This document shows, in pieces, positions 55,661 through 64,000 of a DNA stretch of 64,000 nt; within the stretch, counting starts at the first letter, position 1; each line of letters begins with the position of its first letter. The notes beneath the pieces are model-generated. The model saw only the letters and a program-made list of their open reading frames with translations, searched no databases and had not been told where the DNA came from. Origin of the DNA: Acidimicrobiaceae bacterium (lineage in GTDB: Bacteria; Actinomycetota; Acidimicrobiia; Acidimicrobiales; RAAP-2); contig PLRX01000036.1 of assembly GCA_003164095.1 (NCBI GenBank), positions 1 through 64,000 of the forward strand, in the 5' to 3' direction. A program made the translations under genes and the position numbers.

Positions 55661-57199
55661 TCAGCCGTAGTGGCGCAGGTCACTCCAGAATGACGACCAC
55701 GACCCACGGGGTCCTGTGCATGTCCAGATACCAGTTCCGTTCTCGTCGTTGTCCACGTTGTCCGGGCCGCGGATCGTTCCGCTGTACCGACAGTCGGCGA
55801 AGTGGGGGCGGAGCTGATCCACACTGCCGACGGCGATGACAACCTGGTCGAGCGCATCGCCGGGGCCCCAGAGCCAGTAGGTGTTGTGACCAGAGAGCGG
55901 TTCCGGGAGGCCGTAGCTCCGCCCGTAGACATCGAGCGCACCCGCCTCTCCATAGTTGGCCGTGAAGATCGAGGTCTCCTCGCGCTCCCGCACGGGTAGC
56001 CCGTCGTACACGGTAGCCACCTGCGCAGTGAGTCGAGGCCATCCGACCGTCTCTCCGAGGTCGTAGCTGGTCTTGTGCAAGAACGTCATCCGGGCGAAGG
56101 ATGACATCGGCAACACCGGCAGGACGAACGCCACCGTGAGCACCGCCCCGACGATCGGCGCGGCGAGCCAGAGCCTCCGGCGGGTCCGCGCCGATCGGTG
56201 GTGCTCGACCCAGCATCCTCCGGCCGCGAACAGGAGGGGAAGTGTCCCGGCTGTGTAGTACGGACGACCGGGAATCACCACGAACACGTACGCCACGACG
56301 AGCCCGATGGTGACCAGTGCGAAGTGGAGCTCCCGACGCTGCATCAGGTGGCGAATGCCGACGACCACGATCGGGAACGCCAGGAGTCCGACGAGGATCA
56401 CCTGGGCGGGCACGAAGCTCGCGTAGTCGCCCGATCCGGAGTGCTCGATGCGCAGCGAACGCGCCATCGCCAGACCCGGCAGGTTGTTCGTGAGCTGCCA
56501 CACCAGGTTCGGCGACCACAACACGAGGGCGACGCCACCCCCGATCCATGGCCACCGCGTCGCCAGCGCCGATCGGGCAGACGTGGCGAGGAGCCCGATA
56601 CCGAGGGCGATGCCGAAGAGGAGGATCAGGTCCTTGTTCTCCAGACCGATTCCGGCGACGAAGCCCACGGCCAGCCAGTAGCGCGGCCGTCCGTGCACGA
56701 CGGACCGCAGGACGAACAGGATCGCGAACGTCCAGGCAGCCAGGTCGTAGACCGTCGTGCCGGCAAGATGGGCTGATCCGAGCAGGATCGGGGTACACGC
56801 CATGGCGACTGCGGAGAGGAGTTGGGCAAACCTCTTTCCGCCGAGCTCCCCGGCGGTGAGGCCCGTGCCGACCACGACGACACCGCCCGCCAGGGCCGGA
56901 ACGACGCGGACGGCAGTGGGAGTGGTGCCGAGCAGGGTCGTGCCGAGCCGCGTCAGGAGCGGGGCCAACGGCGGTTGGTCGACGTAGCCGAATGCCGGGT
57001 GTCGACCGCTGGCGATGAAGTAGAGCTCGTCACGATGGAAGCCGTAGCGGGCGCTCACGCCCAGTTCCAGCGCGACCAGGGCACCAGCAACCCACCAGAC
57101 ACCGGTGTAGAGAGCGCGGTCCATCTGGCGATCCGTCTGCGAGCCTCGCCCCGCCACCTCAGCTACCGGCCCAGTTGGCGAATCGACGTCAGTCGACAC
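55661..57199 (-). CDS. ArnT-like glycosyltransferase family 39 membrane protein
   Basis: YGFHRDELYFIASGRHPAFGYVDQPPLAPLLTRLGTTLLG...VVPALAGGVVVVGTGLTAGELGG; about ten TM helices; GTG start. Confidence 0.85.
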   Translation of the reverse strand: MSTDVDSPTGPVAEVAGRGSQTDRQMDRALYTGVWWVAGALVALELGVSARYGFHRDELYFIASGRHPAFGYVDQPPLAPLLTRLGTTLLGTTPTAVRVVPALAGGVVVVGTGLTAGELGGKRFAQLLSAVAMACTPILLGSAHLAGTTVYDLAAWTFAILFVLRSVVHGRPRYWLAVGFVAGIGLENKDLILLFGIALGIGLLATSARSALATRWPWIGGGVALVLWSPNLVWQLTNNLPGLAMARSLRIEHSGSGDYASFVPAQVILVGLLAFPIVVVGIRHLMQRRELHFALVTIGLVVAYVFVVIPGRPYYTAGTLPLLFAAGGCWVEHHRSARTRRRLWLAAPIVGAVLTVAFVLPVLPMSSFARMTFLHKTSYDLGETVGWPRLTAQVATVYDGLPVREREETSIFTANYGEAGALDVYGRSYGLPEPLSGHNTYWLWGPGDALDQVVIAVGSVDQLRPHFADCRYSGTIRGPDNVDNDENGTGIWTCTGPRGSWSSFWSDLRHYG

Positions 57200-57415
57200 C
57201 TCCCGGATGGTAGCGATGGGACACTCGACGTGCTCGGCTCGACAACGGACACCCACGGGCAGGATCTCGGGTCGTCTGCAACCGGTGGCAGTCGCGCATC
57301 TGTCATGGCGCAAGGCGAGCTGGAGGTTGGCGTCGCTGCGACGTCGGCCGACGGGCCTGGAACCTACGGAGCACTCGGAGTCCGTTCGGAGCGGTCCGAG
57401 CCGCTGGCGAGCCGG

Positions 57416-58726: not shown

Positions 58727-59174
58727 GTGGGACTTCAGAAGCGATTCAACCGTGGGCGGTCGCGTGGGCGCTGTCGGAGCTCGATCCGGCGGATTGCCAT
58801 GCTCACATTCGTCGGCCTGATTGCCATGCCTGCTGTGGGAGCGCTTGGCCTGGCGTCAGGCCAAGATTCCGCATTCGCCGCCGTGTCGGCGAATCCCCTG
58901 GCAGGAGACCACCAACGCGGAGCTGTTGCGCACGTGCTCCGTCCGATGGACGTCAGTGTTCTCTCTGACATCCCGAATCCGGCAGCCAACCCAAGCGACC
59001 GACCTGCGTGGTCATCGTGTGCCCGCGGCGCCGACATGGACAACTCCCCAAAGTGCACCAGCGTCGTTCTCACCTACATCGACGTCGGTCGCGCGAACAT
59101 CGGAGTCAAGCCGATGGTGGCTGGCTGCTTCCGATGGCGGCATCTTCGCCTTCGATGCACCGTTCTTGGGGGCG
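58727..59174 (+). pseudogene. Mosaic remnant: secreted-protein N-terminus joined out of frame to an 'ASDGGIFAFDAPF' repeat unit
   Basis: MLTFVGLIAMPAVGALGLASGQDSAFA signal peptide, RPAWSSCARGADMDNSPKCTSVVLTYIDVGRANIGVKPM, then in another frame WLAASDGGIFAFDAPFLGA (59118-59174). Confidence 0.55.
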
Positions 59175-59468
59175 GGAAGACCGAACTTGACTCATCCGGC
59201 AGCGCGAATCTTTGGGCACCACAACGTGACTGAATGCAAGCAACCACCACAGGAGCGGAGAGGCCTTCCTTCGCCATCGACATCCACCAGCCGCCCGAGG
59301 CGGATGACGTGCTCAGCCACTCCTGGGGGTGCTGCGAACCAACGGGAACAGGCCCAACCGCGGACTCCTATCCCACCACCGGACTCAGCACGCCGCACAC
59401 TAGGCTCCGACTGGGCAGCCTGCCCGTGGGCCGGGCTCGAAAAGCAAGAGCGGAAGGAATTTCGAACA

Positions 59469-60398
59469 GTGGCCACTTCAAGGACGATTCTCTTTCTCGG
59501 TCCGATTGGCAATTCTGATCAACGAGCCGCTGAGTTCTTTGTCCGAGGTCTCGGTGATCTTGCTCTGGCTGTGAGTTCCCTGGATGAGATGTTGACCACG
59601 GTCCCGGCCGAAGGGACGTTCTGCGTCATCCCGATGGAGGACAACGTCAGGGGTGAATTTACCGATGTTCTGCGAAGGGTAATCCTCGAAGTAGAACTGG
59701 CGATCATCATGGACACGTTTGTGCTCTCGGAGATGATCAGTGGCTACGGATTCCCATCAGAAATCGCTCCGAGGGTGGCACTGTCTCATCCGGATGTACT
59801 GGAACGTAACGCGCGGACACTGAAAGAACTCGAGATCGAGCCGCGTAGTACGCCGACCACCGAAGAGGCATGTCGAATCGTGAAGCTCCAGGGCAATCCG
59901 GAATGGATAGCCCTGGCACCAGAGGTAGTAGCTGTCGGCCGGGGCCTGCAGCGGCATCGGGTGTTTGGGAGTATCGAGTCCGAGTTTCGAACTCGATACG
60001 GCCTCCTTTCGATGTCGGCCGTGACCAATGTCGAAGCAACCCACTCATTGATCCTCGTCTGGCCGAGCGAAGAGACTGTCGGCACTCTGGCTGCGGTCAT
60101 TAGGGCATTCTCGGATAACGACCTTGACATGACATCGCTGAAGAGTATGAAGTTCTCGGAAGTTCGCCCGACAGCATTTCTGATTGAGATCCGAGCTCCC
60201 CTGATTGACGCCGGATTGCAAATAGCCATCCGGTCCCTCGTTAAAGCAGGTGCAGCCATCAAGCTCCTTGGGTCATACCCAAGCCGGGAAGCTGTGACAG
60301 AACTCTCGGAAATCGAACCGCGAGGATTGATCAGGGATGGCGTCGAGCTGGGAAGTCTGCTCGACAGTTTCCGACTTCGCGGTGAAGACCAGTCATGA
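59469..60398 (+). CDS. Divergent prephenate dehydratase-like protein with ACT-like domain (copy A)
   Basis: GTG start; ILFLGPIGNSDQRAAEFF, FCVIPMEDNVRGEF, VALSHPDVLERNA, TTEEACRIV, FRTRYGLLSM; C-terminal ACT-like VGTLAAVIRAFSDNDLDMTSLKS. Confidence 0.72.
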   Translation: MATSRTILFLGPIGNSDQRAAEFFVRGLGDLALAVSSLDEMLTTVPAEGTFCVIPMEDNVRGEFTDVLRRVILEVELAIIMDTFVLSEMISGYGFPSEIAPRVALSHPDVLERNARTLKELEIEPRSTPTTEEACRIVKLQGNPEWIALAPEVVAVGRGLQRHRVFGSIESEFRTRYGLLSMSAVTNVEATHSLILVWPSEETVGTLAAVIRAFSDNDLDMTSLKSMKFSEVRPTAFLIEIRAPLIDAGLQIAIRSLVKAGAAIKLLGSYPSREAVTELSEIEPRGLIRDGVELGSLLDSFRLRGEDQS

Positions 60399-61336
60399 CG
60401 GGAGACCGCGAATGCCTCTTCCTGGGACCCGAAGGCAGCTTCTGTCATCAAGCCATGTCGAGGCTTCAGACATCATCACTGGAGCCGAAGCCGGCCGCTG
60501 ATGTTCAGTCGATTGTGCGCGCGGTGGAATCGAACGACGTTGCATTTGGACTCGTCCCGGTGGAGAACAGCGTCGATGGAGAAGTGACATCGACAGTGGA
60601 TAACATCGTATTTGACACCGAGAGCATCCTTGTCAGGGAAGAGGTAGTCCTTCCAGTTGCTTTCGATGCCTTCGTCCTCCCTGGTTCGCGGCAATTCACT
60701 AGCGTCATCAGTCATCCAGTTGCCTTGGCCCAGTGTCGCAGGTTCATAGACAAGCATGGTCTTCGCGAGGAGAAGACGTCATCAACCAGCGAAGCCTGTC
60801 GGTTGATCGCTGATGAAGCGAGAAGCGATGCCGTCGCGCTGGCGTCACCGATGGCAGGCGACCTGTATGGGCTGGCTCGGTTCGCAAGTGGTGCACAGGA
60901 CAATGATGCCGCTCATACCAAGTTCTTCCTACTCTCGAAGGCACTTGCTCCGTTCCAGGAGGGGGTGAGGTACAGAACGTGGATTGCTGTCATTCCTCAG
61001 AGCAATCGGACGGGCATCCTCGCGCAAATCCTGGAGTGCTTCGCCGACAGAATGCTCTCGATCTTTTCCTTGAGTACTAGGCCACTGCGGGCCGATATCG
61101 GCGCGTACTGCTTCATTGCCACGGTGGAGGGCTGGGTGGATTCCGATGAATTCAAAGGGGCGCTGGCGGACGTGTTCGAAATGGGATCGTTGGTGAGGGT
61201 GCTTGGGTCGTTCCCCAGCTGGAACGGGCCGGGGGTCGTGTCGAGCGTCCTGGGTCTGGGCGGCCTCGCCCCGTCTCGCAACCCAGCATTCAAACGCGAC
61301 GTGCATTCTCTGGCATCAACCCTCACGATCAGCTAA
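60395..61336 (+). CDS. Prephenate dehydratase-like protein with ACT domain (copy B)
   Basis: CLFLGPEGSFCHQAMSRL, FGLVPVENSVDGEV, VISHPVALAQCRRFI, AAHTKFFLLSK, ACT TGILAQILECFADRMLSIFSLSTRP; ATGA overlap with copy A. Confidence 0.82.
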   Translation: MTGDRECLFLGPEGSFCHQAMSRLQTSSLEPKPAADVQSIVRAVESNDVAFGLVPVENSVDGEVTSTVDNIVFDTESILVREEVVLPVAFDAFVLPGSRQFTSVISHPVALAQCRRFIDKHGLREEKTSSTSEACRLIADEARSDAVALASPMAGDLYGLARFASGAQDNDAAHTKFFLLSKALAPFQEGVRYRTWIAVIPQSNRTGILAQILECFADRMLSIFSLSTRPLRADIGAYCFIATVEGWVDSDEFKGALADVFEMGSLVRVLGSFPSWNGPGVVSSVLGLGGLAPSRNPAFKRDVHSLASTLTIS

Positions 61337-61989
61337 TGACGGCTACATCGATTCGACAGATGTCGGTATCTGCCGGCGCACTCTTCTTCGCTGTCCTGTC
61401 GATTCTCATTATTCCATGGGCTCACAAGTATGGGATTGTGGGCGGGCTTGTTGCGGTCATTCTCGCCACCGCGGGCATTTCACTGTTCGTCGTATGGGTT
61501 CAATATCTTCTCTTGTCCTACTGGGCTCGAAGTTTCCTCGGGACCTGGTTCTACATCTCTGATGCCACGTCACTGAAGCCCGGAGGTCATTACGGATACG
61601 CGACCTTCAACATTCGCGGTGGGCAGATCCAGTACGTAGTGGAGCTGTATTCCCTTGAATCCATAATCCGTCTTGCCTCTGGAGATAAGAGCGGGGGCGC
61701 TGACGCGGCCGGTCGAGCTTCATCGGATGTAGTGATCTTTGATGGAAGTGGATCGATCCGAGCTCTCTATGACTACACGCCGTTCAACGACAGCGAAGGT
61801 GGCCTTGGAGTCTTGGACCTCACGGCACTTCAGGGAGACGCAATGACTGGGACGTGGGTGACTGCCAGACGCAGCGGAATACCTGGTTCTGGGACCCACC
61901 GGTGGTTTCGCAAGGAGATGTTCCTCAGGCAACTCGAGAGGAGCATTCCTACAGAGTTTGCTGAGGCGATGAAGGTGATCCAGTCTTGA
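61336..61989 (+). CDS. 2TM + beta-strand-rich membrane protein (S-2TMbeta/Cap15-like architecture, tentative)
   Basis: Two N-terminal TMs (LFFAVLSILIIPWA, VGGLVAVILATAGISLFVVWVQYLLLSYW), then SFLGTWFYISDATSLKPGGHYGYATFNIRGGQIQYVVELYS...ALYDYTPF...GVLDLTALQGDAMTGTWVTAR; TAATG overlap with copy B. Confidence 0.6.
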   Translation: MTATSIRQMSVSAGALFFAVLSILIIPWAHKYGIVGGLVAVILATAGISLFVVWVQYLLLSYWARSFLGTWFYISDATSLKPGGHYGYATFNIRGGQIQYVVELYSLESIIRLASGDKSGGADAAGRASSDVVIFDGSGSIRALYDYTPFNDSEGGLGVLDLTALQGDAMTGTWVTARRSGIPGSGTHRWFRKEMFLRQLERSIPTEFAEAMKVIQS

Positions 61990-63014
61990 CCGGCGACCCT
62001 CCTGCTCGCGTTGGCGTCGTTGGCCTCGGGCTCATCGGAGGCTCCATACTTCGTTCACTCGGGAATCTCGAGGGATTCGATGTCATGGGATTCGATTCCG
62101 CTCAGGGTGTGCATGCCCAGGTTCGTGATGCAGGGTTCGGTGTCTCTGAGAGTTTGGCTGCGCTCGTCCGGTGGTCGGATGTCCTCGTCCTGTGCGTTCC
62201 TATAGGTGCAGAAGCTGCTGTGCTGGACGAAGTTGCCGCTCACGCGGTCTCACGGGGCCAGGTGGATAAGCCGCTGGTCGTGACTGACGCTTCCTCCGTC
62301 AAGTTGGACCTTGACTCTGCGATCCTCCAGCAGGCCAAGCAAGAAGGCTCACTCGTCTTCGTTCCGGGTCATCCGATGGCGGGAACCGAAAAGGCGGGCT
62401 TCCAGGCGTCGCTGGATGGTCTTTTCGGGGGCGCCGTGTGGGTACTGTGCCCAGACCAGGGTGAGACTGAAGAGTATGTCGTGGCCTTGATGGGGATCAT
62501 CTCGGCCCTGAATGCTCGAGCTATCTGTTTGACGGTATCCGACCACAACAGGATCGTGGCCGAGATCAGCCACCTTCCGTACGTTCTCGCGGCGACCGAA
62601 GTGCTTGCAGTAAGTGATGGCCGTGAAGGTGAGCAATCCCTGCGGCTGGCCGCATCGAGTTTTCGTGATGTCACAAGGGTGGCGAGCTCACCTCCATCGC
62701 TGTCGGCAGCCATGACGGGTTGGAACCATCAGGCACTTCGGCAAGCTCTGGACCGAGCGCAGGAGGCCATCGACCAGTTCCGGAGCGCAATGGATGCAGG
62801 GGGGGTCGTCGCCGTCGCCCAGCTTGAAGAACTGTTCGAAGCGGCTCGAGCAAAGCGAACGCGCTACCTCGGCATGAGGTCTGAGACTGTCGTGAAGGAG
62901 GCAGACGTGGCGAAGGGAACACTCGTGTCCGCCTGCCTCGAACTCGGTTCGCTCGGGCATACCATCCGGTCGGTTGAGGATGGTGGTGCGACATGGCGCC
63001 TGTCCTCGGACTAG
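61986..63014 (+). CDS. tyrA: Prephenate dehydrogenase (TyrA family)
   Basis: VGVVGLGLIGGSILRSL, VLVLCVPIGAEAAVLDEV, VTDASSVK, FVPGHPMAGTEKAGFQASLDGLFGGAVWVLCP, SDHNRIVAEISHLPYVLA; TTG start overlapping the upstream TGA. Confidence 0.9.
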   Translation: MTGDPPARVGVVGLGLIGGSILRSLGNLEGFDVMGFDSAQGVHAQVRDAGFGVSESLAALVRWSDVLVLCVPIGAEAAVLDEVAAHAVSRGQVDKPLVVTDASSVKLDLDSAILQQAKQEGSLVFVPGHPMAGTEKAGFQASLDGLFGGAVWVLCPDQGETEEYVVALMGIISALNARAICLTVSDHNRIVAEISHLPYVLAATEVLAVSDGREGEQSLRLAASSFRDVTRVASSPPSLSAAMTGWNHQALRQALDRAQEAIDQFRSAMDAGGVVAVAQLEELFEAARAKRTRYLGMRSETVVKEADVAKGTLVSACLELGSLGHTIRSVEDGGATWRLSSD

Positions 63015-63088: not shown

Positions 63089-63328
63089 ATGCCGGAAGAG
63101 CGAGTCCCAGAGGTGATCCCTCCGGCGCTCGTGGCTCAGGCCGACCAACTGCAGGCAAATGCCGCGGCCAAGCGCCAAGAGATTGACGCCCTGATGTCCG
63201 AGGCCAAGGCCGATGCAGTCGAGCAGGTGGAGGCCGGCGAGAGTCCACTGAAAATGGATGAGTTGGAAGATCTGGTCCAGGGGATGATCTGGATCGAGAA
63301 CATCTCGAAGCTCGAAGACCTCGACTAG
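63089..63328 (+). CDS. Small hypothetical protein
   Basis: MPEERVPEVIPPALVAQADQLQANAAAKRQEIDALMSEAKADAVEQVEAGESPLKMDELEDLVQGMIWIENISKLEDLD; helical. Confidence 0.5.
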   Translation: MPEERVPEVIPPALVAQADQLQANAAAKRQEIDALMSEAKADAVEQVEAGESPLKMDELEDLVQGMIWIENISKLEDLD

Positions 63329-63651: not shown

Positions 63652-63724
63652 GCCCACGTAGCTCAGGGGATAGAGCGTCGGTTTCCTAAACCGTGCGTCG
63701 CAGGTTCGAATCCTGCCGTGGGCA
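63652..63724 (+). tRNA. tRNA-Arg (anticodon CCT)
   Basis: GCCCACG acceptor stem pairs with CGTGGGC; D-arm GCTCAGGGGATAGAGC; anticodon loop TTCCTAA (CCT); T-arm GCAGGTTCGAATCCTGC; discriminator A. Confidence 0.93.
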
Positions 63725-63908
63725 CATTTTTCGCATTTGGTGGGAATAGAGACAGAGACCGGGCAAACGCCCCTAGCCCGGTTGGGCGACTCCTGACACT
63801 CCAATTTGGCGACAGCGTCATCCTTGGTTCCCGAACGGAGGGGTCTGCTGCACGATCCGGTGACATCTGATCTGTGGCGCCTAGAGGCGCTGCTGGAAGG
63901 ATGTCTGC

Positions 63909-64000
63909 ATGCCGAAGCCCTATCCGAAGGAGATCCGGGATGACGTCGTGGCAGTTGCCCGGCGCCGTGATCCCAAGACGACCCTGAAGCAGATCGCCAC
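63909..64000 (+). mobile_element. IS3-type transposase OrfA, 5' end (truncated by window)
   Basis: MPKPYPKEIRDDVVAVARRRDPKTTLKQIA: typical IS3-family OrfA N-terminus. Confidence 0.75.

Follow-up and report, generated by a model that had tools for sequence, protein, structure and literature searches.

A horizontally acquired prephenate-branch operon in an Acidimicrobiaceae bacterium, with a putative dehydratase pseudoenzyme and a membrane protein predicted to resemble S-2TMbeta barrels

What is a small membrane protein doing among the enzymes that channel prephenate toward phenylalanine and tyrosine? The question is raised by a contig from an Acidimicrobiaceae bacterium (assembly GCA_003164095.1, contig PLRX01000036.1), of which 64,000 nucleotides, here called the window, were analyzed. 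The first-pass annotation of this stretch described an overlapping operon of four genes, encoding two unlike prephenate dehydratases (PDT1 and PDT2), a membrane protein with a layout reminiscent of the CBASS effector Cap15, and the prephenate dehydrogenase TyrA. It proposed a horizontally acquired system that may make or sense a prephenate-derived molecule; as a simpler alternative, it considered a Phe/Tyr operon native to the host into which an unrelated gene had been inserted.

All four reading frames and all three junctions were found as described (Table 1). PDT1 starts with GTG, its frame being open further upstream, and TyrA starts with TTG. The two dehydratases are indeed unlike, the Pfam match being weak for PDT1 and strong for PDT2. 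Chance assembly of these genes is excluded because the three enzymes recur jointly elsewhere and the full quartet, with like overlaps, is present in a second genome (L154).

Table 1. Positions of the operon genes, their junctions, and the remains of the resident tyrA; positions refer to the window unless a contig is named.
Feature	Position	Strand	Evidence or remark
PDT1, divergent prephenate-dehydratase/ACT paralogue, probably non-catalytic	59469-60398	+	PF00800 E 1.5e-6; operon-PDT1 clade
PDT2, prephenate dehydratase with ACT domain	60395-61336	+	PF00800 E 1e-42; conserved motifs
2TM-beta membrane protein, 217 residues	61336-61989	+	L154 homologue, AF2 model, fold matches
TyrA, prephenate dehydrogenase without C-terminal ACT	61986-63014	+	PF02153/PF20463 (PDH_N, PDH_C)
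PDT1-PDT2 stop/start overlap ATGA	60395-60398	+	same overlap in L154
PDT2-membrane protein stop/start overlap TAATG	61334-61338	+	L154 has ATGA there
Membrane protein-TyrA start/stop overlap TTGA	61986-61989	+	L154 has ATGAGTAG overlap there
Resident tyrA scraps	G000:C45:16791-17120 (in L124)		between aroH and aroA; several internal deletions

The GC content of the operon (0.56-0.61) is lower than that of most of the window (about 0.70), as first noticed; toward the contig end it drops gradually from 0.70 to 0.56. As to the neighbors that had been named, a tRNA-Arg (63652-63725) and an IS3-like element were found, and the pseudogenes were not confirmed: the stretch at 58727-59233, upstream of the operon, is possibly a broken secreted-protein gene and has no Pfam match. 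The IS3-like element begins at about 63909 (window 63909-64000) and continues in L040 (8910-9930), with an OrfA carrying HTH_Tnp_1 and an OrfB carrying an rve domain in a broken frame. Apart from the tRNA, no Rfam element was found, and a search for att-like direct repeats flanking the operon found none. Just downstream of TyrA lies an ORF of 79 residues (63089-63325) with a weak CHASE3-type match below the cut-off; to the left of the operon, the minus strand carries a glycosyltransferase of the PMT_2 family (55664-57313).

Homologues of PDT1 occur in at least 32 of the 397 genomes of the order Acidimicrobiales, in families f3, f9, f32, f39, and f46; within the host's own family (f1) the host is the only genome to have one, among the matches listed. 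In each of the 23 regions mapped first, and at the G105 locus too, the gene adjoins tyrA. The order PDT1-PDT2-TyrA is found in the f3 genomes, in G177, and in G105, and where the operon holds a single PDT the canonical one sits elsewhere in the genome. Leaving the host aside, 28 of 29 operon genomes possess exactly one canonical-type and one divergent PDT, the exception being G295, in which a single PDT was seen. Trees place the PDT1 of the window inside the operon-PDT1 clade (support 100) and its PDT2 among the operon PDTs, together with those that come second in tandem operons; both are separated from the resident PDTs with full support, and the TyrA likewise falls outside the resident clade, long branches making finer placement unsure in these trees. 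In three f39 genomes (G144, G098, and G207; loci L142, L143, and L144), the non-operon PDT has a very long branch and is separate from the other resident PDTs.

The closest relatives of the operon among the matches listed, L154 and L155, were found by a genome scan with PDT2-type sequences. Both are metagenome-assembled genomes (MAGs) whose names suggest a lake or reservoir origin, with GC contents of 0.54 and 0.59, respectively. L154, a diverged freshwater relative, has PDT1, PDT2, a homologue of the membrane protein, and TyrA, with an overlap at every junction and ordinary metabolic genes all around. L155 has the trio PDT1-PDT2-TyrA without the membrane gene. The combination of two dehydratases, membrane protein, and TyrA therefore occurs in at least two genomes; the neighborhood suggested by the first-pass annotation does recur, though in only one further genome among the matches listed. 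In a concatenated tree the window groups with L155 (98/98), and L154 joins both (100/100).

The question whether the host keeps canonical genes of its own has a different answer for each enzyme. Its draft genome (G000; about 95.5% complete, in 163 contigs) contains three PDT genes, namely PDT1, PDT2, and a canonical one on contig C110, and only one match to PDH_N, the TyrA of the operon; a second TyrA was not found. Given the completeness and fragmentation of the draft, a further TyrA could be missing from the assembly. In all eight genus relatives compared, tyrA occupies a syntenic locus; in G008 it lies between the chorismate mutase gene (aroH) and aroA, as read from the translations. At the corresponding place in the host the flanks are intact, and in place of about 1.16 kb spanning tyrA there is about 0.33 kb with short colinear scraps, so that the resident tyrA has decayed and the operon is left with the only TyrA found in the host. 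Since the other genomes of the genus and family lack the operon and only these scraps are left of the resident gene, the operon was acquired horizontally, as had been proposed, and has replaced the host's own tyrA. The simpler alternative mentioned above is contradicted, as the operon is not ancestral to the genus and its membrane gene is shared with L154. A transferred operon together with a decaying resident tyrA clearly exemplifies how a core biosynthetic gene is replaced. Because it supplies the only TyrA found, its role should include ordinary phenylalanine and tyrosine synthesis, plus something extra.

The drop in GC toward the contig end and the lower GC of the freshwater-type MAGs nearest to the operon could also be read as a binning or assembly chimera, the end of the contig coming from another bacterium. 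The shift is gradual, however, and the host tyrA has decayed on a different contig, as expected if the operon supplies TyrA, so that a chimera is highly improbable.

PDT2 keeps the active-site motifs GSF, ENS, SHP..AQC, and T.F. In PDT1 the conserved active-site motifs are not intact, despite a PF00800 match above the cut-off. The GTF motif has lost its invariant F throughout the operon-PDT1 group; all 16 single-operon members and the window protein have S instead. At the Q of AQC, the 16 single-operon members have L and the window protein has R. PDT1 retains E in the PxEN motif and TR in the TRF motif. Zhang et al., in 2000, are said to have found some of these positions to be needed for catalysis in E. 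coli PheA. With these residues lost, PDT1 looks like a pseudoenzyme. The ESRP-type motif of its ACT domain is lost as well in the window, L154, and L155, which suggests that PDT1 may not sense phenylalanine or tyrosine.

Prephenate decarboxylases are relatives of PDT, and the mixture of retained and changed motifs would also suit an active PDT1 with altered prephenate chemistry, for instance a non-aromatizing decarboxylase of the BacA/SalX type, in which case the operon would make a special metabolite. It is a decidedly unlikely reading: the operon contains no tailoring, transport, or NRPS genes, and PDT1 still has an ACT-like region at its C-terminus, is a constant companion of TyrA, and has degenerated furthest in the clade of the window.

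The TyrA of the window has both PDH_N and PDH_C, and the catalytic residues H129, H187, and R231 are invariant among operon TyrAs. A presumed allosteric extension at the C-terminus is found in many actinobacterial TyrAs (PMC1173090). An ACT domain is present in 24 of 25 resident TyrAs vs. none of the 26 operon TyrAs, and its absence from all of the latter suggests that PDT1 may supply regulation in trans. The proposal that PDT1 may regulate an ACT-less TyrA in this way is drawn from a correlation across one lineage. In the consistent pairing of a PDT pseudoenzyme with ACT-less TyrAs, a regulatory domain may have passed from one protein to its partner. At the C-terminus of operon TyrAs, PDH_C is followed by an extension (for example, window 62800-63011 and L036:8074-9126) that has no Pfam match and varies from lineage to lineage.

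The membrane protein is known from at least two sequences, those of the window and of L154. The L154 homologue (tblastn E 9e-32, 34% identity) occupies the same operon position, and the idea of an orphan insert was rejected on this ground. Single-sequence searches of the genome contigs, viral contigs, plasmids, phages, the order, and the phylum yielded no real homologue, and neither the L154 homologue nor the two-sequence alignment found one among viral contigs, plasmids, and phages. Weak matches looked like chance alignments on inspection; one, in L079, overlaps an apparent glyceraldehyde-3-phosphate dehydrogenase gene. On the topology of the tree, the simplest history is that the common ancestor of the three operons had the membrane gene and that L155 lost it; the absence from this sister operon implies that the gene is dispensable. 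To judge from the sequences compared, it is neither a unique insert nor indispensable.

A gene that can be lost might simply be an unrelated passenger, kept by shared descent within an otherwise ordinary transferred pheA-tyrA operon. This would account for its absence from the L155 operon and from all other tandem operons, and for a membrane protein without known function. Its constancy argues the other way: in two operons that share only about 33% identity in PDT1, it lies between the same two neighbors and has a stop/start overlap with each of them. We consider a passenger unlikely.

The fold of the membrane protein was predicted with AF2. A model made without an alignment was too poor (pLDDT 49.5) and was set aside; the two-sequence alignment with the L154 homologue gave a model of middling confidence, with a pLDDT of 75.4 and a pTM of 0.64. 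It consists of two membrane helices (3-31 and 33-68), an eight-stranded barrel, and two C-terminal helices, so that the S-2TMbeta/Cap15 architecture of two N-terminal helices followed by an eight-stranded barrel is present in the prediction. The N-terminus and the stretch that follows the second helix (a helix that is weakly hydrophobic in L154) carry positive residues, which suggests that the barrel is cytoplasmic. In the viral library BFVD, the top match is a full-length one, to an S-2TMbeta protein (E 7.7e-7, about 212 columns), with an E-value more than 100-fold lower than that of the next. In the PDB, Cap15 (7n34) is among the top structures (Foldseek E 7e-4; VIA Z 10.4 over 103 residues), where nitrophorins (Foldseek) and designed or de novo barrels (VIA Z) score as well. 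Small eight-stranded barrels are common.

Sequence profiles give no such identity. PF18153 has no match in the host genome at E<=10, nor to either membrane-protein homologue; Pfam gave nothing significant for the membrane protein, NCBIfam and PADLOC gave no match, and a PDB sequence profile search found nothing. The protein is therefore likened to S-2TMbeta by predicted fold and not placed in that family, and the likeness to Cap15 first noticed in the sequence stands for the fold (Foldseek, VIA, and BFVD) and fails for PF18153.

Does this fold make the operon an immune system? Cap15 in CBASS and OptE in Panoptes are gated by cyclic nucleotides from a partner cyclase, and in Panoptes such barrels can be toxic on withdrawal of a constant ligand (PMC12657218, PMC12657230). 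A defense or guard system on this model would have a membrane-disrupting barrel that is checked or triggered by a metabolite of PDT and TyrA, disturbed metabolism then killing the cell, and both the S-2TMbeta-like predicted fold and horizontal transfer near an IS would fit it. The gene content points elsewhere: the operon, made up of PDT, PDT, membrane protein, and TyrA genes, includes no CD-NTase or mCpol cyclase, and its proteins have no PADLOC match. In addition, PF18153 is unmatched, the L154 copy lies among metabolic genes, and most related operons lack the membrane gene. The immune connection raised by the first-pass annotation is thus not upheld, and a guard role is very unlikely.

The reading that we favor, and hold to be probable if only narrowly so, is that of a transferred operon for the prephenate branch of phenylalanine and tyrosine synthesis, in which PDT1 is a regulatory pseudoenzyme and the membrane barrel tethers or tunes the branch point. 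PDT2 would make phenylpyruvate and TyrA hydroxyphenylpyruvate. PDT1 would have lost prephenate dehydration and would bind TyrA, PDT2, or both as a regulatory subunit, replacing the ACT domain that TyrA lacks. The membrane protein would be a membrane-anchored barrel, probably exposed to the cytoplasm, which could bind a pathway metabolite or an operon enzyme and so tether or tune the branch point; sensing of a prephenate-derived molecule, putative as it is, is possible. In our judgment a metabolic sensor or membrane tether is likelier than a passenger, and a passenger likelier than a guard.

More generally, it is conceivable, as a tentative and rather doubtful proposal, that S-2TMbeta-type barrels extend beyond cyclic-nucleotide immunity, the barrel at the prephenate branch point sensing a metabolite or an enzyme while a PDT pseudoenzyme regulates an ACT-less TyrA in trans. 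A literature search found no earlier report tying a Cap15-like barrel fold to amino-acid synthesis, and none, among the papers searched, joining prephenate dehydratase with an antiphage role or with a pseudoenzyme. A Cap15-like membrane barrel outside immunity would bear on the origin of such receptors.

Each component has a familiar counterpart. PDT2 aligns from end to end with PheA proteins carrying an ACT domain (PF00800; 3luy, 4lub, 3mwb), shares conserved motifs with them, and differs in its tandem arrangement with a degenerate paralogue and in having TKF for TRF and STRP for ESRP. TyrA matches known prephenate dehydrogenases (PF02153/PF20463; 3ktd) over most of its length and keeps their catalytic motifs, but does not have the C-terminal ACT domain carried by the resident TyrAs of Acidimicrobiales. 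The membrane protein shares with Cap15/S-2TMbeta (PF18153; 7n34, 7n35) the two N-terminal membrane helices and the small eight-stranded barrel of the model, whereas it has extra C-terminal helices and belongs to an amino-acid operon with no cyclase. Similarly, the 2TMbeta protein OptE of Panoptes has the same predicted architecture, and it is conceivable that here, too, a partner enzyme controls the barrel through a ligand; the partner there is an mCpol cyclase, whereas here the partners are the PDT and TyrA enzymes.
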